From Ectocarpus siliculosus (taxonomy: Eukaryota; Sar; Phaeophyceae; Ectocarpales; Ectocarpaceae), in NCBI GenBank assembly GCA_000310025.1, contig FN649727.1, positions 3,650,528 through 3,714,527 of the forward strand: a stretch of 64,000 nucleotides of DNA, written 5' to 3'. Shown here piece after piece: positions 15,143-53,940 of this stretch (position 1 is the stretch's first letter; every line of letters starts with the position of its first letter). Both the position numbers and the translations under genes were made by a program. The notes under the pieces were generated by a model, which saw only the letters and a list, made by a program, of their open reading frames with translations, had not been told where the DNA came from and made no database searches.

Positions 15143-16860
15143 TGCTCTTTTTTAATTATTTTTTTGTTGGTCTCGCGGTCTTTGTCGAGGTATTGTAAGG
15201 TCGTTAGGATGTTGGACGCGGTAGAACGATAACCTTGAGCGAGCTGACCGATGTGATTCCGACCAACCCACTTGTAGACACCGCCGGGAGGAAGGTGAGG
15301 TGGGTTGAGGAGTTGACGCTGCCCGAAGGTGTCGGCCTATCCATGTACGTCGTTCGACGCGAGGCTGGTCGTGCGATGGGCCAGGGTTGACTGGTATATA
15401 GAGCGGCAGCATGACGTTGCGCCGCAGTTGTGTAGTATTGTCTTGTGTTTCCTGCGCACTAGAAGAGCCCTAGCGTACAAGCTTATCTTGCTTTTTTCCA
15501 ACGTACACAGCTGTACGGCGGGAGTTTTTTTGTGCGGATGTGCGGCCTGGGGTAGGAGTGGTGGAGGTGGGAAGTTGAATGGCTTCTGGTGACACGAAGG
15601 AGGCGTTTTTTCGCGTTCATGCGTTCTGTAACTTACGGAGCTCTCTTTGTCGTTGTGGGAGCTGCCGGCCAGCACAACGTTAGCCGAAGATTTTTTGCAG
15701 CAGGGCATCCGTAGTGAGCAATGGTGGGCGGTGAGGTCGTTTGCGCATCGACACTACTATGTAAGTTGTCAATGTCGTCCCCTGTTGATTTGTTCTGCCT
15801 TTCGGGTGGTGTTTTTTCCCGTAGTATCCGTCTCTGTAACAAGGGTTCACCTCGACTATTCTGTAGCATCCACGGCGTATGGGCCTCAACATGACTCAGA
15901 TATGTTTGTGGGGGGGTGACGGTGATAATTTATTTCTGTGTGCTTCTTCTCCATAGAGGAGCCGGGGATTGCATGGTTGGTTGGTCTCCGACTCGCCAGG
16001 AGTGTTTCCAACAGCTATGGTGTGTACGTACGTGTGACTTACACGCCTTTTCTCGAAGTTCAAATATCGCGCATCGTGTAGATACCTGTGAGCGACCTGC
16101 AGCCGCCGTCGAACCCTTCTTGTTTTTTTTTCTGTGTCACGATGTGTGTAGGTACGCGACCGGACGTTACCGATTCCTTGTATAAGGGGAAAGCAATGGT
16201 GTCGACTGCTGCCACCGCGCTCTGCGGAATGTTGACCTGCGGTCGTGCATTAGCATCACGCACAGCAGTAGCTGACGAAGTCTTGCTCCGTATTAACGGA
16301 TTGCATGGTTTGGAGATACGCACCATGCAGTTTAAAGCTTGGTACGCGGCCAGAAGATAAAATGATCTCTTGGGACATTGCTCGAACCATTTGGAATGAA
16401 AAATGCGTGCAGGATCGACCAATAGTCACATGATACCCTAAACACAGGAGTCTTTGAAACAGGTCTCCGCACCCACAAGACGACATATATCCTCTTGTGA
16501 CGCGCAGTGACAACTTTTTTTACAGGGTTGCAGGGTTGGTTCTCTGCGAGCTGTATCACGCCACTGATTGGTCAAGTTTTCCCGAGAACCCGAGATTTGA
16601 AATTTGGCAAGATTCAAACCGAAACCATCCGCCGCATCCGCAACCTCCGGCCGTTTGCCCTCTCTGGATGGGTTTGTATGTTGTGTGACGAAGAAGGGTG
16701 GACGTGTGGACGTGCATGGGCAGCGACTACTTCCCGCAGTCTCTCTAGTACATTTCCCGCGTCTGGTGCCGCTCTCATTCAACGCAAGACACCAAAAGCA
16801 ACACGGATAAAGAGAGTGGAGACATCCATCGTTGTGCACTCCACCCTGCACGTACAACAC
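15143..16860. other. Intergenic stretch, no gene seen
   Basis: It holds the 3' region of the TMEM14-like gene and the 5' region of the following plus-strand gene. A 16507 ATG opens the same frame as the downstream exon, but residues before 16861 lack the Ala/Pro/Lys-rich coding composition seen after it. An untranslated first exon may lie here. Confidence 0.4.
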
Positions 16861-19800
16861 ATGAGACCTCCGCCAAAGCGGGCCGGAGGCCGCCAGTCAA
16901 GAGGGCCGGCGCTCACTTCTGTACTCCCTGTGCCCGATGGATCTCGGCGTGCAGCACCCAGTACCGGCATGCCACCAGACGAGAGGCTGGACTCTCCGCC
17001 TGGTTCGGCGAATGGACCGGGTCACGGCAAGGTTGAGACAAGTGCTGGTGCCGCCGTCGAGGGCGAACCTAGACCCGAGAGTGATCGCCACCGGCTCAGC
17101 TCTCAAGCAGCTGTATCACCAGCAGCGCCGGAGGCTTCGGCAGCCGATGAGCTGCAGCGACAAGCTCGCCACTTCTCCAGCGAGGGCTGCGTGTTTCGAG
17201 TCGGGGACACGGTCCTGGCCAGAACCGCGGGCAGGCCTGCCAGGGAGGCCACTGTCGTCGAGGCGGACCCCTCCGACGGTTCGCGCTTCAAGGTCGCTTT
17301 CAAGGACAAGCGCAAGAAGGGCGGCTGGCGGGACAAGAACGAGCTGTCTTCTCTCCCTCGGCCCGCCGACGCTGGGTCTGCTGCAACCGCGATGGTGCCA
17401 CTGCCGTCGAGTTCCGCCGCTGCTGCTGGTGAAGCAAGGCCGGCGCCGCCGCAGCAGCGAAGAGATGACAGAAACGCAGAGGTCGATGCTGCTGCTGCTG
17501 CTGCAACTGCACCGGAACCTTCACTGGCCGCCGACAGCGAGAGGACATCTGGCAAGCAGCAGCCGCCCTGTTCAGAAGTTGTAGCAGCTGAATCACCGGG
17601 GGCACTGGCGGCTGCGGTAAGTGACGAGGCACAGCGACAGGGCCACCTCCCAAGCGGGGGCTGCTTGTTCCAAGTCGGGGATGCGGTGCTGGTGAACACC
17701 GCCGGCAAGGCGGCGGCGTCTTCTTCGGAGGCCACCGTTGTCGAAGTGGATCCCCCCGGCGGCTCGCGGTTCAAGGTTGCTTTCAAAGACAAGCGCAAGA
17801 AGGGGGGCTGGCGGGACAAGAGCGAGCTGTCCGCTGTTCGGCACACCGGCGCCGGATCTACCGCCGCGGGACAGCCTCCTTCAGAGCCTGCTTCCGGCGC
17901 TGCTTGTGGCACGGGCGGCGGCGGTGGTGGTACCGTTGGTGCTGAACCTGGTGCTGGGCTACCACGGCCAGGAGCCAGCGACACCAGGTCCTCGCCGGCA
18001 TGTTCTTCGACAGCGGTCGAGGCCGAGCCGATGCCGCAAAGCGACCGACAGCCCAGCCCAACAGCGGTAGTCGGCACTCATGAGTCTTCGGAGCCAGCTG
18101 CGCCGGTACCGGCACCGGCGTCGCCCTCAGGTCCCTTGTTTGGAGTCGGGGAGGCGGTGCTGGTGAGCACGGCCGGCAAGACGGCGGCGACAGCTTCGTT
18201 TGAGGCCACGGTTGTCGAGGTGGACCCCTCCGACTCCTCGCGGTTCAGGGTCGCCTTCAAGAACAAGCGCAAGCAAGGTGGCTGGCGGCACAGGAGCGAG
18301 CTGTCCGCTCTTATGCGCCGCACCGGCGCTAGATCTACCGCAACGCGACCAGCTTCTGGGTCGGTCGGCAACGCCGGTCCTACCAGTGGCTCTTCTGCAA
18401 GTCACGAGAAGAGTAGAGCCGGGATGTTGGGGCAAGGAGGCCGTGCATCCGAGGCCCCGGCACTGGGCGCTGCTTCCGAGGCGAGAGCGCGGGCAAAGGG
18501 CCCGCCGGGCCAAGGCTTGCAGCGGTCGGCGTCACAGGGGGAGAGGCCCGTCGACAAGGTCGGGAATAGGAAAACAGCGGCGCCGGCGATGGATACTACC
18601 GCCGTGCGGGAGAGCGGGGGCATTTCGGGACCGCCGAAGAGAAAGCGATCCGCGGCTACTGCGGCGGCGGCTGCCATCACGGCAACTGCTGGCAACCGCG
18701 GTAGAGGAGGCAGCAGAAGCAGCGGCGGCGGTGGCGTCCAAGCTATCAAAAAGAAGCCTGTGAAGAAGGGGGGCCAGGCCAAACGGGGGTCCGTTGCTGC
18801 TGCTGGTGGTACTGCCGCTGGGATCACGAAAAAGACGCCCCGCAAGAAGGGCTGGCAACGGCCGACGGTGGTGACTCCTGGGTCTGTGGAGGGACGCCCG
18901 GAGTCTGCACTCAGGTTGGTTGGACACCTCTTGTGTGTGTGCGCGGCCTCGGAAATGGCTACCGCCACAAGTTCTAAACTCTTTTCTTTTGCTCAACACC
19001 GCTCGGAGCGCGCCTTTGCCGACCCAAGCCGACGCCCCCCTCCCGTCACCGTTTCATTCTTTTCCCCTTCTCCTCGTCTTCCCGTCGTTCTCCGCCTCTG
19101 CCTCCGCCCCAACACAGGACTACCCACCCGACAGAGATCATCCGGCCGAGAAAGCAGTTCAAGGTCCAACAGGCCCGAGTAACGCCCAAGGCCAGGGCCG
19201 GCTCGAGCAACCCCTCGTCTCGCGGAGCGGCGGCACCCCGTTCTTCCTTCTCGGCCGGCCGCGGCGGCAGCGCCAGCGCTCCCCGCCGCATGCTCTGCCA
19301 GCCGTCCCACTCCGTTCGAGACGCCAAGCGTGGAGGTTTTGAAGGTGGTGATGGCGGCGACCGCAGCAGCGGGGTGGGAGGAGGAGCAGGGGCTGACGAC
19401 GAGTCGGACGTGGTCCGACGTGGGCGACGCGCGCGGAGGCAGGTGCACCCGAGCCTGTCGGAGGACACGATGGCGGCCGCCAATGGCGGCATCGAGAGCG
19501 ACTACCGCAGCGATGAAGACGGGGAGGGCGCTGGTGCTGGCGGAGGCTACGGAGACGCCCCTTTTCGCTTCCGCACGAGCGAGGTTGCGCCGTGGGGGGA
19601 GGGAGATAGGCCGCTAATCAAGGTTGGTGGTGCAGGGGCGGGGAGGGGCGGCAGGGCGTCCTGGTGTTTTGCATGCCTTAGCTGTTAGACCATTGACCAC
19701 GGGTGAGGTCAGGTGGAGACAGCATTGATGGAGACGAAGGTGTGGCGTGGAAAGAGTCGGAGTGTGGTCATTACCGCCGCCTCCGCATACATCTAACTGG

Positions 19801-32972: not shown

Positions 32973-35595
32973 CTAACGAACAAAGAATGTTTGACGTGCG
33001 CGGTCCACGGGCTTGAAATCACCACCCTTCACCTTCAGGATGGACTCGTGCAGCGTCCATCTCTCCTCCTCGAGCTCGACGATCTCGGGGTGCTCCATGC
33101 CGAACGTCAGTCCGTCCTTAACCTTGGGCACCCACCTGTGGGCATGAGAAGTCAGCAGTTCACGCCATGAATCCATGGAAAAAAAAAAAAATGGTCCCCG
33201 GGGCGTTTCGTGTGCATTGGGCAAGGAGAGAAGGAGAGAAAAGACAAAAAACAGCAATACCACGTCACACCAGTTTTGATCACCGCCGGTATACGCATAT
33301 TCTCAGGACCGCCTTTTGGTTGCTCTCTCCAATGAGGAAACACTTCACCAGTAGTAGCATGCATGGTGTTAGCCACCTCTCACCTTCTGTCGACTGTGTC
33401 GAGCTCGGCGATGCGCAAGAGGAGTTCCTTGAGCGTTACGGGTTCGAGTTCGGGGAAACGTCTCTGCAAGTCCGGTCGGCTCACGGCTCCGTATCTGCAC
33501 CATTGGGCGCCGGGGGGCGGACGGAGATCAAAACACACGTGACAATCAAACAGCATCGTTAGTACCAGAATCTGCAGACTGGTGAACGCATTAACAACAG
33601 AGGATGAAACACACACCAAAAGCGGTGGGTCCAAAGAACTGATGATCGCGAACCACAAAGGCCGCGTGATGACGCGGTCGAGGCAGGATGGCCGGAAAGG
33701 CGGGAACAGTTGCCCAAGCATGCGGGAACCTATTTAGCTTGCTGACTAAATTAATTAAGACTACCAATGCAAACAGAGAAGAGAACAGTGGCCACCCGCA
33801 GCAGCAGCAGAATGCCTGCCATGCCCACCTGTGAAGCAAACACTGCGCGACCGACAAGCAGTCGGCGGCATGCGGGGGGCCCCGCGGCCAAACGTCCGCC
33901 GGCAGAGCCGCCCAGTTGCCTCGCATCAGCAGCCCCTTCTGCCGCCCTTCCACGCTCAGCGCCTGAAGCACGGCGTCCGGGGACATGTTGGTCACGTCCA
34001 GCAGCATGCTGAAGGGCACGAGGTGAGCCAGCTTGAGGTACCCCACAACCTGCCGGAGTGCAAAAGGAGCACAGGGAGGAGAGTACGCGATAGTAGGGGG
34101 AGAAGGGGGGGGGTGACGCAGACAAACAAGACGTGGTGAGTAGAGAGACAGCCTGGGGAAACAAAACAGGAGGTACTTAACAACGGCGGGGGCGGGGTGA
34201 TACGCATAGACACGGAGGAGCGGGGGCACAACATGTCTTCTAGCATCTTTAGTCCTTGGGGGCTGCTCCAGATACTGGAAAAACCGTTCAGAACGTCGAC
34301 AACACGCAACATTTTCCGTCAAGGAACGGCATTGTTTCATGCGTGAACACTCAACCGTACAGGGTCGCAACCACACCGCCACCCTTGCAACAGTCCGACT
34401 CAACCTCTTGCTCGCAAGGTACTCCAGAAATGTGTCAACTCGACAAAAACAACGGTATGAACACGGCACCACTGCCAATTAGCAAGCGTACCTTGGCATC
34501 CCCCCCCAGCTGATGCGCGGGAGCCGCGGGAAGGTTGACGGGAGAGTACGTGCCCGTTCCGGCGGTGACCAGGTCAATGCTATCGGCCAGAGATCTGCTC
34601 GCAAGCAGCAAGATCACCGACGCGCAACAAAGGCAACAGCGGGGGGGAACATGGAACATGGAACACGCATGTAGAGAGAGAGCGTCAGCTCTGCGTGACG
34701 GGGGCGCAAGCAACAAGAGGGGAAACGCTAAGCCCGTGATCGCGGCGAAACGTATGGAGGGCGCCAAGAAGTTTTTGCGTGTAGCCGATCCATCGAGAGT
34801 TGAAAACACCCAGGGAAGGTTTCACATCGCGCGGGAACAACAACAATCGAACCAAGACACAGTTTGTCGATGCCTGCCTCACAACCACCTCAAGCACAAG
34901 CAAAACCCCCCACACCATCACACACTACAGCCTCCACCACCAACCACAGCAGCCGCCACAACCACTCGGCCTTCGAAACCAACAGCATCTCCACCTCACC
35001 GGACCAAAACAGCACGCACCACCACCGATGCATACACACACAAAAAAAAAACTCACCGTCCCCTGCCCCCGGCGGAGAAAGACTCCCCGTTCTCGTCGTA
35101 CTCCTCCATGTAATCCAGCCCCTGGAGGTAACGCTCGCACGGGGGGAATTCCTTGGTGGTCGTCCCGCGATTGGCGCTGGCGTCGTCGTCGACGAACATG
35201 CGGGAGAATTCGTCCAGGGACCGATCGTCGTTCTGGCCGTGCACCTGGCGCAATCCGGGTTCCCGGCGCAGTCGTATCCGCAATCAGACTCTAGATTCAG
35301 ACAAGACACTTAAGAGAGAGGATTGATTTCCTCCCCTCCGGCGATTGGGCAAGGTAGGGAAGATTCACCGCTGCGGTTTGCCTAGATTTACAACCCTGTG
35401 TATCCTTCGGACCCAACTGCGGCTCTGACGTGCGCCGTGTCGTGTCCCCCCACGACTCAACAGTGCCAACACGCACGAGTGGTTGCAAGGGCAAAAGCTA
35501 AAATCTTACACCAATATCTTAAAAACAATCGTCCAAAAACTCGGCCGTCGCCTCAGACTCTCTGTCTTTCTCCCTCTCTCCCTCTCTCTCTCCGT

Positions 35596-39925: not shown

Positions 39926-42257
39926 ATGGCAGCAGCAGCAGCAGCCGGCCGGCGCACGGTCGTCGTCACTGGAGCTGACGGGGGCATCGGGAGCTCGTTT
40001 TGCAAGCACTACGCAAGCAAAGGTGACCAGGTCTTCGCCTGCAGGTACGTGGGACTGAGGAGGCAATAAAAGCAAGCCCTAGCAGCATCGTACGATTGTA
40101 GCCTTTTGTTGCGGCCCACAAGAGAGCGTAGCGGATGTGTTGCTGTCGTATCGTAGGTGTACATTTTCTAGGGCATCGTGCCCGTCACGCGCTCATGTTT
40201 CCCACCCATTCACGTGAGATACCGCGATTGCTGAGCGAGGGATATTCCGCAGCACTCTTGTGTGGGTGACTATTGTTGTGCTGAAGAGTGTTGCGCTGGA
40301 AGGACTTGGCGGGAGTTATGGGGTATGAAACATACTTCAGGTTATTCAAACATGTTTGTATCCATCAACAAGGATCCAACGCGGATGTCAATTTTGGCTC
40401 GCACCGTAAATGGTACAGGTGTATCGCATCTTGATACGTAGCCAGCATGTGGAATGTATGGAGATTGGATTGGGGTAACCTGTGACCACGAGCTCGTCTC
40501 TTGACCTTGGGAGAGTATGGAAGAAGTACTCGCTTCTTGATCGCGGGAGAGTACGCAAGAGGAGGTGGTACTAGAAATAGCTAATCGGTTGATTGGTTCG
40601 TGAAACAACACCGGGCGTGTGGTATATGTTGGTCCACCAAGTAAACACATCTTCGCTTGCTTGCTGCGTATGTTGGTCCAATTTTACTCGTCACGTACCC
40701 ATCCTACCGCGAAATAGCCAACAACTAGCACCCTTTCTACCCCGAAGCTCTCTTACAATTCATTGCGTTTCGTTTCCTCGACGTCGCATTGAAACGAACC
40801 CTCCGTCGCCATGAACAGACGAAAAGCAACCCCGGACGCGAGCTCGCTCTTCGACAACAACCCGAACATCCACGTGGTGGACGGGGTGGATGTTACCATG
40901 GACGAAGGGGCGGGGTGTCTCGTTAGCGCCCTCGAGAAGGCCGGCAGCCCGAAGGTGGACGTGCTCATCAATAATGCGGGAGTCATGAAGCGAGACCGTA
41001 ACACGCTGGACATCGGTGTTTTGCGCGAGTCCATGGAGGTTAACGCCTACGGTGCTTTGAGAATCACCAACACTCTGTGAGTGCTGCATGCAGTAAGCAG
41101 ATGGTATCGGTACTCATGTGCGGAGGGGTGGAGAAGCTTTCGTGTTGAATTCAATCTTCCGTGACATGATGGTAGAAGTTGCTGTAGCGTCATGTGTGAC
41201 TGGTGCCACTAGGCCCCACAAGTCTACTCCCGCAAAGGAGCAAAGGACGTGCATAGCATACATCCACCACCTCAAGTTGCCAATCGTGTGCTCTTTTGTT
41301 CTTGCCAACAATACAGGCTCGGCAAGAGGATGTTGGCTGCTCCTGGGGCAAAAATCATCTTGATCACATCAAAGATGGGATCGATGGCGGATAACTCATC
41401 GGGCGGAGCTTACGGGTAGGATGTAGGGCTGGAGAAACCCTACTCCGTACCAAAGAATCGAGGGTACTGGTGTGTAGCAAAGATATGTGAAAGGAACCGA
41501 CCGAACGAACACGAGAACGTAGTTCTGGGTGAGACTTTGCACATGACCAATCTCTCACCCTTTCGGTTTTCGATTTCCGTCCCTTTTTACATAGCAACGT
41601 TTCTTCCTCCGGCTGGACGATACTTCCCAGGAGTTTTAGATGTTGGCGCCCATATACTGCACGAACGATTCCTTACTGTTCGCGGGTTTACGCCCGATAT
41701 CTTCTCGTCCTGTCGCATGATGGTTCTGCCAGGTATCGCATGTCCAAGGCCGCACTCAATGCTGCGGGTGTGTCATTGGCCCACGATCTGAAGGGCGATG
41801 GTATGGCCGTTGCCATTCTTCACCCGGGTGAGACAGCTGAAATTGCAATTGCTCTAGGGCCAACAACGGCAACATGGTCCCTTTCGCCTTGAAACCCAAG
41901 CGCGAAAATCTCGTACTCAAGTTTTTATTTTTTGTTGAAAACAGTCACCAGTTTTGTTTTGTGTTGTTCTGGAATCCCACAACGTGAGTTAGTGATACAA
42001 AGATGACGAAGCTTGTGCATGTTTGTTCCGTCTAGACTATCATTACTCATGGTTTCATTGTGACCCATTACCATTCATCAAAGCTGCACTCTCCCGTGCG
42101 TGTATTTGCAGGCTGGGTGAGGACAAGGATGACCGGCGACTCCGGATTGGTTGACACCCACGAGTCGGTGGCGGGCATGACGGATAGAATCGAGGAGCTA
42201 GACCTGTCGAATTCGGGAACGTTTTGGGGGTTCAAGGGCGACGTCATCCCGTGGTGA
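39926..42257 (+). CDS. Short-chain dehydrogenase/reductase (classical SDR)
   Basis: Five exons with matching phases: 39926-40044, 40819-41076, 41317-41415, 41733-41827, 42112-42257, giving 238 residues, the usual length. The cofactor motif TGADGGIG lies at residues 15-22, so the start at 39926 places the Rossmann strand at the N terminus as expected. The stabilising NNAG is at 91-94. The active-site Ser is in ITSKMGSM (about 144-148), and YRMSK gives the catalytic Tyr160 and Lys164. LHPGWVRTRM is the normal post-catalytic motif. The overall pattern (GSMADN..GGAYGYRMSK) is like the C-factor/CsgA-type NAD(P)-dependent carbonyl reductases. Substrate cannot be told from sequence, and no targeting peptide is evident. 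It is head to head with RPC5 and convergent with the J-domain gene. Confidence 0.92.
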
Positions 42258-42946: not shown

Positions 42947-45900
42947 TCACGCGTTAGTTGTTCTCTCCAAAGCTTTAGAGCTAGAAACCATCCACTCGTA
43001 AGCGTCGCCTACAAGTTCGAACACGTCCTGAGCGCGCGCAGAGTGTATGGCGTACCGCACCCAGCGGTCCGGATGCCAGAGCAGCGACTGGCGGTAGTAA
43101 GCGCGTCGCAGTTCGCGACCACTCGCGTCCCGATCCACCCCCAGCCGCTCCCACGCAGGTTGATCTCGAGTCGGCAACCCTGCGCCCGTTTCCAGAGTCT
43201 CGATGCCGGGGTGGTACCAGAGCAAAGCCAAGAGTGGCTCTGTGCTCGGGGAGTAGACGTAAGCTACGTTAATGCCGTTCTCCTCCAGTACTTGCTGGCA
43301 CGTCATCACGTACCACGCCGCGCCAGCTCCCCCTGAGACGGTGGAAACAGCCTCGGTCGCAACCGACGACGATGGCCGCACCTGGTGCGGCGCGCCCGTT
43401 CCCATCCCCACGTCGCTCACCCATTCACCGCTCGCTCCTTCGCCTTTCACGGGCCAGGGACAAGCGAGCCGGCTGAACACTGCCCTACATCGGCGAAGGA
43501 TGGCGCCATGCTCCGTCTCTTCCACGATTACTCGTGCGGCAGCCAACGGGACGTTCGCGGCTCCTACATCCTTGCTGTCATTGCCGTCTATGAAGAACTG
43601 AAGCGTCAAGTTTCCGGACCCACTGAACGACAGGTGGGAGAAATGAACGACGCCGACGTCTGAAGTGTTGAAGCGCCCATGAGCATTCGCGACGGCACCG
43701 TTGGATCCGCGCAAGGCGACGGAAGCGCGCACCACCGTTGAGCTGTCCTTGTGGATCTTGCCCCCCCATTGATCCCAGACCTCGAGTGTGGCGTGCATGG
43801 GCTGGTCGGGAAACAGAGTTTCGCCCTCGTGCCCGAGGTCTGTGATGTGGAGTCTCGATGGACGGGGAACGGCTTCCCGGCACTCCTCAACTTCGGAGGC
43901 GGAAGGGGCTCCCGCACCCGACACAGAATTGGCACATCGCGCGGGGGCAGTGCTCGACGCCCCCTTGCAGATCGCGAGCCGTCCGGCTTCCCCTATCCGG
44001 TGCGCCGCCGTCTCGGCGCAGGCGACAGGCGCTCCCGAGCTTGCCCCGCGGCAGAGCGAGGCGGCACTGGCGCCGCTGAACCCGATCATCAAACCGGCTG
44101 CTGCGCAATCTGCGGTCTCTTCCCCGCCAGGCTGCCCGTCGGCCGCACAGAGGACCTCCACATCGCTGTCACTCATTCGGAGCGGCGCCGCTCGCGCGCA
44201 TAGTGCCGGTTTGTCGTCCAATGCGTCCCGACATACACGAGCAGCTAATCGGTGGTCAACCCCTCTCCGAGGACGCCTGCCAGCCTCAGGGTCTAGTGGG
44301 CATACGGCCTCCCAATCCGGCTGTCCTTGAAGCTCGCGAGGCCCGGAGGCCGCGAGGCAGAGCGCCGGACTGGTGGACAGCGCCCCGATACATGTCTCAA
44401 CTCGGACATCCGCCGGGATTTGGCGGGGCGCGGCCGCAAAGCAAGACGCCGGCGCTAGCGACGTCGATCCGGCGCACAGCACAGCGGCCAAGCGTCGGTC
44501 GGCGCCCGCCCGGAAGGCCGCCTTCGCGCAGTGAGCGGGGGCCGCGGACGATGCGCCCTGACACAGCGTCATCAGCGCGTCGGAAGATTCTCCGACGGTG
44601 TGGCGGGCCACCTTCGCGCACTCTGCGGCGGCCTTCTTGTCGGCGGCCCCACGGCAAAGGGCAACCGCAGAGGCCGACGGAAGGTCCTGCGGCACTGTTT
44701 TCAGGCAAGCGGTTGGAGTGGTCGGGCTCTCCTCGGCGGCCCCCTGGCACAGACCCACGCGGTCTTCCGCAGATAGCGAGGGGGGGGTGGATGCTAGACA
44801 GGTCGCGGGAGCAATGCCAGAAGCTCCGCGACATAGTGCTACCTTGTTGGGGGGGCTGATGCGACGATCTCGTACTTGTCCAGCGCATCTGGGAACCGGG
44901 TGCGTTGATCAGTACAAAGAGCAAGCAGGTTGGTCGAAGGTGGTAGATGGGAACGCTAGGCTGAATTGTCTGCAATAAAAACGGAGTACACCTGTTGGGT
45001 TCAGCACTTCCACGAGTTTTTAGTTTCACAGAATGGTATGAGTGACGATCAGAGGAGCAAGAACAGCTTCGTAGCACGCAGGTTGTGTGATACTGATGGG
45101 GTCGATGACAAAGACTAAATTTACCGTCTTGGACGCGATACGGACAACATTTCGTATACTACGCACAGTTGCTAACAGTTTCATCAACGGTAAGGGTGAC
45201 GTTGGCTCCTGCCGTGGACGATGTGGCTGTAGGATCACAAGGTCGACATAGTTTTCGTCAGCTATCGAGAGCAAACATGTGTCCTTTCGTAAGAGATAAG
45301 CAATGAGAGACGCCGAGAACATGGTAGGTTGGGCGTCGTGTCAATCAGGGTCCTCCTACGAAATAGCCGTACACAGTGGTGCTCCGACTTCCGACGGTGG
45401 CCGGGATGTTTCCAGCGTTGTAGACATATGCATGAACTTCACTTTTCTAGTACTTGGCATCCGCACACTGCTGTAACATCGCACCTTGCCGGAGCATCCG
45501 TTCTTGCTCCTACACACAACTCCACACGTTCATCTGTCGAGAGCGCTGTGGCGAGGGCGGACCGACGAAAACAGTCCGCCGGACCTTGACCGCTGGCACC
45601 CCGGCACAACCTCACCGTGATATCTGGTCCATTTCTAAGTTGGTCTCTAGCATTAGTACAAATGGCTGGCCCTACGCCTTTAGCTCCGCTGCAAAGGCCA
45701 ACCGCTGCTTCAAGAGGAAGGTTCTGCGGTAACAGATCGAGGCACTCGGCTGGCGCTACGTTCGACGCTCCTTTGCACACGTCCACCACCAGATGAGGTT
45801 TTCGTTTGGATTGAACAGAGTGCTCTACACACAGCGCCGGTGCCTGAGAGGAAGTGGACATGAGCGGCGGGAATAGTTGTGAGCGAAGGCGTCAACGGCC

Positions 45901-46781
45901 GATGAATGTAAGTGGCACACAGGACGGTCCCGGAGATAAGAAACGCCGAATGAACTGCGAGACTGCGGGCCCGTTCTGGCATGGTCATGACCGCGCTATG
46001 TAGCACCGTCAAACCGGTTGCTGCATCTCTCTTGCAATCAGACCGCGCACAGAGAGCTGTCTACCTTTGGGTCGTAAAAACAAAGGATAGGTTGTTAATA
46101 CAGGGCTTTCAGGAGAAAAATACGTGACATAACAATTGAGTGCTACGAAACAGACGTCAGCGATGCATCCTACACTATATCCTATGACATGTGTATGCCT
46201 GACGGGGGCAACGAAATGAGAAATTGGCGCTGCACCCGAAATTGACGTTTCTGATCGGCGGGGGCCTACGCGCACCTATTCTGGAGCGCTCGGTGTGCAT
46301 ACAGTAGGTCCATCATTGCGCCACGATAATCCGGTACGGCCGGGGCGCAACACAGCAGTGAAGTACTTAGACTTACATCCGAAAGAGCACCTCTGCAAAG
46401 CTCAACCCTGAGATCTGGAGAAAGATTCCTGGCCGTACTCTGGGACAGTCCCGCCACGCACAGCCCTGGAAGTTCGGAGATCGCCCCAGAGCACAACTCA
46501 AGGATATGAGAGCCTGACAGTCGCGGTGCCGCGTGAGCCTTCCTTGCGCAAAGTGCCGGAGCGGTCGTTGTGGCCTGCCCGCACAGAGCTACCCTCTGAT
46601 CCGCAGTCAGAAAGTATGGCGCAAGTCGAGAACACTCCTTGGCGACACGCAACGACCCTTGACATGAACATGGTACTACAACAGCACACACCAGCAAGCA
46701 ACAGAGTCGTCGGCTATGTTTAGACGATGATCTGCTCTTGCGACCTGGACTCGGCCGTACCTGCTTCAACACAGACCCCAT
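42947..46781 (-). CDS. Secretory-type protein with ~19 two-cysteine repeats and C-terminal J domain
   Basis: Three exons, all in phase: 46781-46377, 45843-45485, 44888-42947, giving 901 residues. Residues 26-40 (LCCLLVCAVVVPCSC) form a signal peptide or anchor after a basic N terminus. From about residue 50 to 593 there is an array with ~29-residue spacing and pattern LC-x-GA-xxxx-PA-x-C-xxxA, each unit with two cysteines. Clear units start at Cys67, 97, 129, 158, 186, 215, 245, 274 and so on to 591. Both exon joins restore the repeat exactly, which supports the model. Residues ~600-710 look like an Ig-like beta domain (HATLEVWDQWGGKIHKDSST). Residues 830-890 are a J domain with HPD at 860-862, preceded by RELRRAYYRQSLLW. 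J domains activate Hsp70; together with the signal and cysteines this suggests an endoplasmic-reticulum lumen or extracellular role, by inference. I do not know this architecture. Confidence 0.86.
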
Positions 46782-51594: not shown

Positions 51595-53745
51595 CTACCA
51601 AAATCGCTTCTGCTGGGATCCAACGGTCGCGACGAGCTTGTCCTCTCCGGCGGGCACCTTCATCATGCCGAAATCCCCTTCACCGTCGTCCATCACTTCC
51701 CCGTTGCGCTTGAAGACGCCGCCAAACACCTGCGGCTTGGGCTCACCACCCAACTCTGCTTCCCCCGCCCCCTCCCCGTCATTTCCCTCCGACAGCAGCC
51801 CCCCCATCTCGCCCATGCCGTCCACCATCAACACCGTCCCGTCCATCTCCAGCTGCTGCTTCTTCTCGAAAGACAGCACGATGGTGAACCTGAGGCGCGC
51901 CCTGTTGGTCCTCTTGTCCGAGTAGACCGCCCACCTTCCGCCCACGGGCTGGAGGCCCTCTGGATCGCTCCACTCGACACCAGGCGTTTTTCTGACGGTT
52001 GGGCCGCCCACCACCTTTTGATCCGGTGGGGAGGGATACGGCACACCCACAAGGAGCGATAGACCACGATCAAATCAGACGAAGCGTAGAGTGGGGTCCT
52101 TATGCGCGGACGAACATAAGTGCATCGTGCACGAAACGATAAAAATAGAGCTCTGTAACACACACCAGCAGCGCACGGGCACGGACGTCGAAGGCCCGGC
52201 CGCGTACACCGCCGCAGTACACAGTAAGCAGCAGCGTTGTACGAGGGGCGTCGACTGCTGCCGCTGCTGCTACTGCTGCCGTTGTATGAAATAAAACACT
52301 AAATATAATAGCTCACAACCCCGCCTTCAGCACTTCGTGTTACCTGGCCGTCAGCTCGAAGGATAACGCGGCCGCTTAGGTCTTCGCCATCACCTGTGCT
52401 GCCGTACAGCTGAACGCAACCGTCAGCGGAGCGAAGCACGCGTGCGGCGAAACGCAACAAAGCGACGGGGTGGGGGCAAAGGGAAGGGTTTTGCAGTGTA
52501 CCGTTGTGTAGAGACATGTAGTGAAAACTAGGGGGCGGGTAAACAGATATAGTTGGGGGTGCGGCAGTACTAAAAGCGGAACGTTGAGCACGCCCAGGGC
52601 GTCCAAGGAAACTGGGCTGATGGGCTGCTGTACTGCCTTGAATACCAAGTGCGCATGTTGCAAAAATGTGCCTGGGGGTGCATAACAAGAAACGATCTGC
52701 TTCGGGTAGTCCTTTGTATCGACCATATGTTGCTACTCGTGCATACATGCTACTGCTGGAGAGTACAACGTATGTAATTAAGTAAAATAAATACACGCAC
52801 AGAAAGACTACCCATTCGAGATATTCCCACAGCCGAACGGGATGTGGTGGATTCTGTTCAGTGAATGGAGGAAAACCGGCTGGGTACTGGACTTATTTCG
52901 AGTCTTTTAAGTCTTTACACTGATGATTTTATCAGTGATGCCAGCTGGTGCTAAGTACAAAAACATCTGTATACAAGGTATCCTACATTTTACAATACAT
53001 CCCCTGTACTTCTCTACTGGGTCAACGACAAAACATCGGGGATAATCCCTCCGTTGTGTCTTGTGTTGTAAAATGTAACCTTCATAGGGGACACGGCACA
53101 GCAGTGTCTATTGACAGCTTAATGTAGAATCTGGTCCACCCTCTACCGCTGTTCTACACTACAGTACGACATCGGCGCATGAGACGTGCTTTTGTACTGG
53201 TGTACCTTCCAAAACCCGACCATTGCTTCGGGTTGTCCATTCTCGAGCTTGGTATCCTGGAGCGTAATCTCCTTGGTGACTGGCGAGCCCGGGAACGCGT
53301 CGTTCGGGAATATTGCCCCCTCCAAGCCTAGCCCCACACCCTTCCCCACGCCAGCTACGGGTGCTGCCGCAGCTTCGACGACCGCACGCCGTCCGTCTTC
53401 AACTTGCTCTTCTAGTCGATCCCTCTCTGCCTTGTTTGCCCTGAACTCGTCGATGCCAACGAGTTCATCAATGCCATCATCATCGTTGGCGCTACTTCTG
53501 TCATCATCTTGATCGCCGGCTGCTTCTGCTGCTGCTCGAGGAGCTGTTGGTGAGGTGTTTGAAACACACCTCAACGGTGACCGGCTGCTTGATGTTACGC
53601 CGCATAGGGACGGTCGTGCCGCACCACTACCTCTGGCGGCTAATGGTGGGGCGAACGACATGGACGAACCAGTCAAGCTCATTGCAACTAGAAACGCGAG
53701 CGCAGGGCATTGTCGATGTCGTTGATGCCGTTGGTTTGCCATCAT
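51595..53745 (-). CDS. Plastid-targeted conserved-looking protein, function unknown
   Basis: Three exons in phase: 53745-53206, 52409-52344, 52014-51595, giving 341 residues. The N terminus has a hydrophobic signal segment (ALAFLVAMSLTG) followed by SSMSFAPPLAARGSG. This is the signal-peptide/FAP-motif/Ser-Arg-rich transit peptide layout used for import into secondary plastids. An acidic, coiled stretch follows (residues about 75-110), then a compact domain with GFWKLYGS, GRVILRADGQVVGGP, GGRWAVYSDK and RLRFTIVLSFEKKQQLEMDG. I do not recognise the family. Intron 1 carries copy 2 of the retroposon-like element. The start lies only 195 bp from the divergent homoserine dehydrogenase start, which is also plastid-targeted. 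An adjacent ATG at 53742 is an equally good start. Confidence 0.8.
52798..53075. mobile_element. Short retroposon-like element, copy 2
   Basis: It matches copy 1 (11965-12266) from CAGAAAGACTACCCATTCGA to the CCGTTGTGTC end, with scattered substitutions and small indels. It is in intron 1 of the plastid-protein gene. Only a short possible target repeat (ATGTAA on both sides) is visible. Confidence 0.78.
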
Positions 53746-53940
53746 CCAGCTCTACCTGCTGTCCAATCCTTAGGCTGCTGAGGTTTGATTGTGATGTCTG
53801 ACTCCCATCGGGGGTGTCGCACAATCAGCTGAAAATCTACAACTGGGGGGGATCCCTGTTCTATCAAATGCCTCATACACCTGTGGCACGAACCACGGTA
53901 TACTGCAACCCTGGCAACGAAAGAGCAGACTAACTGAATC
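53746..53940. promoter_or_regulatory. Compact bidirectional promoter of two plastid-protein genes
   Basis: 195 bp separate the two divergent ATGs, so both untranslated leaders and core promoters must be packed here or overlap. I see no TATA box at a convincing distance. Confidence 0.6.

Follow-up and report, generated by a model that had tools for sequence, protein, structure and literature searches.

A J-protein gene with a cysteine-repeat array

The window, i.e., the whole 64,000-nucleotide stretch of DNA analyzed, carries on its minus strand a gene (46781-42947) of three exons separated by GT-AG introns, encoding a predicted protein of 901 amino acids with 45 cysteines (Table 1). The open frames reported in the first-pass annotation, a model's reading of the same letters, are present on that strand, and the 901-residue translation contains a single stop codon, at its end. 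The start codon at 46781 is preceded by an in-frame stop eight codons upstream, and the donor of exon 1 is GATGTAAGT. Exon 3 holds ten complete repeat units in the phase of the first-pass annotation, equivalent to eleven hairpins in the phase proposed below. Scanning the complete window for Rfam families and tRNAs gave no match, and a tandem-repeat scan of the gene found one array, with three copies of an 8-base unit.

Table 1. Features of the J-protein gene and its predicted product, in window coordinates (aa, residues of the 901-residue protein)
Feature	Position	Strand	Remarks
Putative signal peptide	46659..46781	(-)	~aa 1-41, hydrophobic core 26-36; hydropathy only
Exon 1	46377..46781	(-)	Start codon at 46781; encodes the signal-type start and the first ~2.7 units, aa 1-135
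Intron 1	45844..46376	(-)	GTAAGT...CTCAG, phase 0; alternative joins possible
Exon 2	45485..45843	(-)	Repeat units exclusively, aa 136-255, final codon split
Intron 2	44889..45484	(-)	GTGCGA...CCCAG, phase 2; alternative joins possible
Exon 3	42947..44888	(-)	aa 255-901: repeats, segment without assigned fold, J domain, stop; single open frame
Cysteine array C50-C591	43880..46634, introns included	(-)	Cysteine positions
Proposed disulfide hairpins	C50-C67, C78-C97 ... C573-C591		18 pairs, C474 unpaired; phase argument and alpha-alpha model
Segment without assigned fold (previously 'Ig-like')	43538..43867	(-)	aa 596-705; no significant family or PDB match
J domain, PF00226	42980..43150	(-)	aa 835-891; Pfam, PDB J domains

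The C-terminal J domain recognized in the first reading was borne out by Pfam, in which PF00226 matched residues 835-891 with an E value of 1.4e-8 (35.1 bits, cut-off 27.8); solved J domains in the PDB align across the same stretch, and the HPD motif is intact (43075-43067, minus strand). The protein combines an HPD-bearing J domain with the lack, in Pfam searches up to E 1, of the zinc finger and C-terminal domains of classes A and B, as in class C type J-domain proteins. The 'Ig-like' label of the preceding segment found no support: residues 596-715 matched no Pfam family up to E 10, Ig-like and bacterial Ig families included, and their one match in the PDB had an E value of 0.59. A single-sequence fold of the C-terminal 327 residues reached a pLDDT of 37.6, too poor to judge an Ig-like fold.

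At the other end of the protein, hydropathy makes the suggested signal-type start plausible. The sequence LCCLLVCAVVV (residues 26-36) is the best hydrophobic 11-mer within the first 60 residues, and the best hydrophobic 19-mer of the whole protein also starts at residue 26 (2.06; the next elsewhere scores 1.53). A hydrophobic start without a comparable second stretch fits a soluble secretory protein.

The cysteine array of the window protein

Thirty-seven of the 45 cysteines fall within residues 50-591, where short steps (11, sometimes 12 or 14) and long steps (17-21, once 23) alternate almost strictly, giving a C-x10-C pattern with mostly 16-18 residues between. These cysteines form 17 complete C-x(10-13)-C units and leave three single (C50, C451, and C591), close to the ~19 two-cysteine units and ~38 regular cysteines originally counted. 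The unit motif matches the protein 10 times, while in 2000 shuffles it matched 0.03 times on average and never more than once, and self-similarity at lags of 116, 57, 29, and 88 exceeds the largest maximum of 500 shuffles. When up to two mismatches were allowed, the DNA pattern of the unit was found 18 times in the window versus 2.8 expected; 13 of these 18 matches lie within the J-protein gene, all on its strand.

The array corresponds to no family in the collections searched. PF00226 was the sole Pfam family of the whole 901-residue protein up to E 1, with no match in the array, and NCBIfam returned only DnaJ models for exon 3. A three-hairpin profile matched no PDB chain, and a one-unit profile gave six PDB matches with E values of 0.17 or worse. 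Neither TPR nor Sel1 repeats were detected up to E 1 in the whole protein or up to E 10 in ten three-hairpin segments (five from the window). The same ten segments gave four single-member Pfam matches at E 10, namely DUF2880 (the best, E 0.003), AP5B1_N, DUF4307, and Gp10_D3, which were taken as chance or composition. The description of the architecture as new-looking therefore holds, since no Pfam family matches the array of the window protein, and the repeat has no counterpart among the families of Pfam, NCBIfam, and the PDB in the copies used. A literature search, with a coverage mostly outside subscription journals, found nothing on this repeat or on its fusion to a J domain.

Similar arrays in bacteria

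Searches of viral and genome contigs with back-translated peptides yielded no relative, and tblastn against phage records gave no match. A degenerate one-unit DNA pattern, however, found at least 118 stretches in prokaryote genomes and 63 stretches, with one match each, in viral contigs. These 181 loci and the window were then scored in six frames with a profile built from 14 window units only. The top matches beyond the window exons were seven-unit arrays in Elusimicrobia (L097, L110, L176, and L064; groups are named here after the titles of the records), together with L167 of Myxococcales and short proteins of Corallococcus, Myxococcus, Pyxidicoccus, and Citreicoccus; the viral loci among the best 25 frames (L032, L019, and L054) contain one unit each. 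Because the search pattern itself had picked one unit per locus, every exact search motif was masked and the loci were rescored, with shuffles reaching at most 5.2 bits. All seven masked Elusimicrobia arrays retained E values of 1.2e-12 or better and L167 one of 1.4e-13, while L187 (2.1e-6) and L191 (2.9e-5) had no motif to mask. L187 and L188-L191 had been retrieved through similarity to the Elusimicrobia proteins, not to the window. With the motif masked, all eight short Myxococcus-type proteins tested fell short of significance (best E 0.028); the case for their kinship is correspondingly weaker and relies on the searched motif and the cysteine pattern.

Arrays of this kind are thus not unique to the window gene, as they are carried by secreted-looking proteins of Elusimicrobia and Myxococcota. 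These proteins (L064, L097, L176, L187, L167, L173, and others) share with the window the unit C-x-x-A...L-C-x-GA-x4-AP-x-C, long gap first, but differ in having 3-8 hairpins and a cysteine step that is shorter (15) or slightly longer (19-20). Those examined by eye that have a complete start open with a signal-like stretch. Members of the long Elusimicrobia family have a proline-rich C-terminal tail, and L205 looks lipoprotein-like, also by eye. No J domain was found among nine bacterial array proteins scanned. The bacterial and window repeats may reflect either common descent or convergence, the unit being too short to tell. In two of the nine (L097, 21.8 bits; L064, 23.7 bits), AP5B1_N exceeded its Pfam cut-off of 21.2 bits, but the best stretches span 18 and 14 residues and none passes alone. 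These matches were attributed to chance or composition, as were NCBIfam prenyltransferase models in L064 and its kin (at most 21.8 bits against cut-offs of 364-420).

The distribution of the repeat was surveyed with several profiles. Profile A7, whose members are the ten three-hairpin segments mentioned above and which recovered all six control genomes (G001-G006), was found in 2 of 199 genomes of a planctomycete group (both short weak fragments, one with an internal stop), in none of 194 of a cyanobacterial group, in none of 198 of the group of G402, and in 3 of 282 of the group of G006, G006 itself included. Profile A6, representing the short Myxococcus-type proteins, was present in 50 of 193 genomes of the Myxococcus group (G004 and G005 counted), and A5 in 6 of 198 of the Elusimicrobia group, counting G003 itself and a weak fragment with four stops (G102). 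Profile A4 gave no match in eight genomes, in a run without a control. Absences in this survey are soft because few candidates were scored per genome: up to 28-29 for A7 in the planctomycete, cyanobacterial, and G402 groups, and up to 20 for A6 in the Myxococcus group and A7 in that of G006. The gene neighbors of L097 and L064 were not informative.

Three further observations concern the bacterial proteins themselves. L187 (G002, C179:1187-1513, minus strand) is a second, different Elusimicrobia protein with four C-terminal hairpins, and it ends two residues past its last cysteine. L206 (G1129, C126) has two sets of hairpins with a longer gap (~25 residues between cysteines) in the LC-x-G...PAxC style (E 5.5e-4), and perhaps belongs to a wider superfamily. 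L173, L065, L111, and their kin are short (~140 residues), signal-bearing proteins with three hairpins that make up a conserved orphan family; no Pfam family exceeded its cut-off in the four members scanned.

Phase of the repeat and predicted fold

The unit was first described as ~29 residues of the form LC-x-GA...PA-x-C. The array is real, but the closed unit is probably phase-shifted, as the bacterial proteins indicate. When the longest regular run of each protein was considered, the cysteine series opened with a long step in all 19 arrays (18 bacterial proteins and the window). It closes with a long step in 11 of them; the other eight, all of the short Myxococcus type, have one extra cysteine 11 residues on, which L169 of the same type lacks. 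In this count the series of L167 is broken by two extra cysteines, and that of the window has a 23-residue step after a long step. L110, whose start is missing, was omitted, as were L205 and L206, which by eye also open with a long-step cysteine. Since many of the proteins are near-orthologues, the 19 arrays represent only about five independent families: the long Elusimicrobia type, L187, L167, the short Myxococcus type, and the window.

Bonding across the short step would give the window protein 17 pairs and the three single cysteines named above, whereas bonding across the long step would give 18 pairs and a single cysteine, C474. Given the long opening gap of every array and the one cysteine left by long-step pairing, the pinned hairpin probably runs PA-x-C-x(14-20)-L-C, shifted against the unit first described, and x-GA-x4-AP-x is proposed as the linker between hairpins. 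The unpaired C474 counts against this phase.

The structure of consecutive units, a check proposed with the first-pass annotation, was predicted by AlphaFold2 from a 12-row alignment, comprising 105 window residues and 11 more rows (three from the window and eight from Elusimicrobia). The best of five models contains seven helices in 105 residues (pLDDT 88.9, pTM 0.80; pLDDT of the other four, 77.0, 56.5, 51.0, and 50.0), and the array is accordingly predicted by the model to be an alpha-alpha solenoid. Together, the cysteine phase and the AlphaFold2 fold are consistent with putative inter-repeat disulfides in such a solenoid. Foldseek retrieved nothing at E 0.001; its top hits were TAL effector repeats, an alpha solenoid (E 0.49 at best, query-length TM 0.47-0.61). 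Kinship with TAL effectors was rejected, and the weak likeness was read as a matter of alpha-alpha solenoid fold only.

Discussion

The repeat is present both in a genome with introns and in two groups of bacteria, yet it is undescribed in the copies of Pfam, NCBIfam, and the PDB that were searched, and therefore deserves a family of its own. Its cysteine phase would provide a simple, testable rule for predicting its disulfides.

The window protein is probably a secretory-pathway helper of a new kind, and the 'secretory-pathway cochaperone' suggested at the outset appears, as judged from sequence, to be its best reading. Its 37 regularly spaced cysteines lead us to expect an oxidizing compartment. 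In more specific terms, the chances seem to us evenly balanced that it is a soluble J protein of the secretory pathway, most likely ER-lumenal, acting as a P58IPK-like BiP co-chaperone with an Hcp-like, disulfide-locked binding solenoid. Its signal-type start would direct it into the ER and the signal peptide would then be removed. The N-terminal ~540 residues are predicted to adopt a long alpha-alpha solenoid structure with ~18 short helical hairpins; a disulfide (PA-x-C-x14-20-L-C) would pin each hairpin, and the conserved x-GA-x4-AP-x would join it to the next. Client proteins or a partner would bind along this solenoid, and the J domain, beyond a linker, would recruit BiP (the ER Hsp70) through its HPD and trigger the ATPase, as expected from the J-domain family. 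A tyrosine at the position of one J-domain contact, K26 of DnaJ, counts against this, as does the lack of an ER-retention tail. J proteins determine the clientele of the ER Hsp70, and those known from the ER use TPR, thioredoxin-like, or beta domains; if true, a J protein whose binding rod is locked by disulfides would extend this range.

The closest counterpart in overall plan is P58IPK (DNAJC3). This ER J protein consists of nine TPRs followed, across a flexible linker, by the J domain at its C-terminus; two disulfides each join consecutive helices, and the distance between the HPD and the putative client site is 100 angstrom (PMC3143134). The window protein shares the order of helical solenoid, linker, and C-terminal J domain, although its solenoid is predicted and its signal is deduced from hydropathy. 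It differs in having ~18 hairpins with a spacing of 28-31 residues and a disulfide proposed in each, instead of nine TPRs and two disulfides, as well as an extra segment of unassigned fold before the J domain. Since ER-lumenal J proteins with a helical solenoid exist (P58IPK/DNAJC3; PMC3143134), the kind of repeat is new while the overall plan is not. Having no TPR match, the window protein falls outside the P58IPK family, although it would act in a similar way.

The Hcp family (Helicobacter cysteine-rich proteins), which is not known to include J domains, offers a parallel for the disulfides. These are signal-bearing proteins of alpha-alpha repeats in which disulfides connect a repeat, at its end, with the beginning of the following one (PMC3851747), an arrangement similar to that proposed for the window protein. 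However, Hcp repeats are Sel1 units of 36-38 residues, and the window repeat has no Sel1 match. SEL1L is likewise an ER-lumenal solenoid serving quality control (PMC4746701), but it is built of Sel1 repeats, its central domain is without disulfides, and it is membrane-anchored.

The other role first suggested, that of a secreted cell-wall or surface protein, is possible though rather doubtful. The disulfide-locked solenoid would then be a tough extracellular rod for adhesion or ligand binding, and the J domain either a leftover or an aid solely to the protein's own folding and export. This would agree with the secreted appearance of the bacterial repeat proteins (signal-like start, proline-rich tail, lipoprotein-like L205), with the lack of a J domain in the nine scanned, and with the C-terminus of the window protein, ALERTTNA, which contains no ER-retention tail. 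Nevertheless, its J domain scores above the Pfam cut-off and has kept the HPD, features that one would expect to have been lost from a leftover.

It is improbable that the fusion is an artefact of the gene model, in which a neighboring repeat-protein gene (exons 1-2) was joined to a separate J-protein gene, or an intron unseen in exon 3 drops the linker or shifts the J domain out. The model was built from the DNA sequence, the middle segment has no significant match, and exon 3 contains one donor sequence of the GTAAG/GTGAG type, at 43420. Moreover, the splice joins are not unique: frame and regular cysteine spacing are preserved by 30 of the 459 GT-AG pairs tried for intron 1 and by 23 of 335 for intron 2. 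The first-pass statement that both joins restore the pattern and leave the model well supported was thus overstated; the joins used, with a GTAAGT donor in intron 1 and pyrimidine-rich acceptors, are a plausible choice among several. Against an artefact, a single 646-codon frame of exon 3 spans ten complete units and the J domain, so that the fusion of array and J domain is independent of splicing, and the first methionine of this exon (residue 361) lies within the array. Likewise, the signal-like start and the first repeats are both encoded in exon 1, and their link does not depend on the joins. Third-position GC is 0.67-0.74 throughout residues 601-900, compared with a GC of 0.49-0.53 in the introns, and the segment between array and J domain therefore looks coding; over residues 1-300 it is 0.48-0.53, not above the introns and uninformative on coding.

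Finally, it is very improbable that the protein works in the plastid or periplastid space of an alga with secondary plastids instead of in the ER lumen: such compartments have their own Hsp70 and a nearby minus-strand open frame (53143-53751) has a plastid-type leader by eye, but import in these algae normally needs phenylalanine or another aromatic residue at the cleavage site, which the guessed site SCQ/GSL lacks, and an oxidizing compartment better suits the 37-cysteine array.

For the ER co-chaperone that we prefer, a speculative origin can be outlined. An algal lineage might have acquired a bacterial 'covalent ladder' hairpin repeat and combined it with a J domain; the result would be a new class of ER co-chaperone whose client rod contains ~18 disulfides and is possibly redox-reporting or redox-dependent. 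We regard this scenario as tentative and on balance unlikely.

Other genes in the window

Several other coding regions were noted in the window. On the plus strand, an 893-codon open frame (16501-19182) carries a Tudor/Agenet-like unit (VGDxVLV-TAGK...ATVVEVDP-SRFKVAFKDKRKKGGWRDKSEL) repeated about three times, for which DUF1918, Tudor_3, and Agenet gave weak Pfam matches, all under cut-off. An exon piece at 33594-34478 (minus strand) matches RPC5, a subunit of RNA polymerase III (E 4.8e-6, 26.5 bits, cut-off 23.1). Tail to tail with the J-protein gene lies a plus-strand region (41533-42257) with two pieces that have no Pfam match; by eye, YRMSKAALN..., HPGE, and GWVRTRM presumably resemble the end of a short-chain dehydrogenase. 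The open frame at 53143-53751 matches no Pfam family, and its plastid-like leader, SSMSFAPP, hints at a photosynthetic stramenopile.
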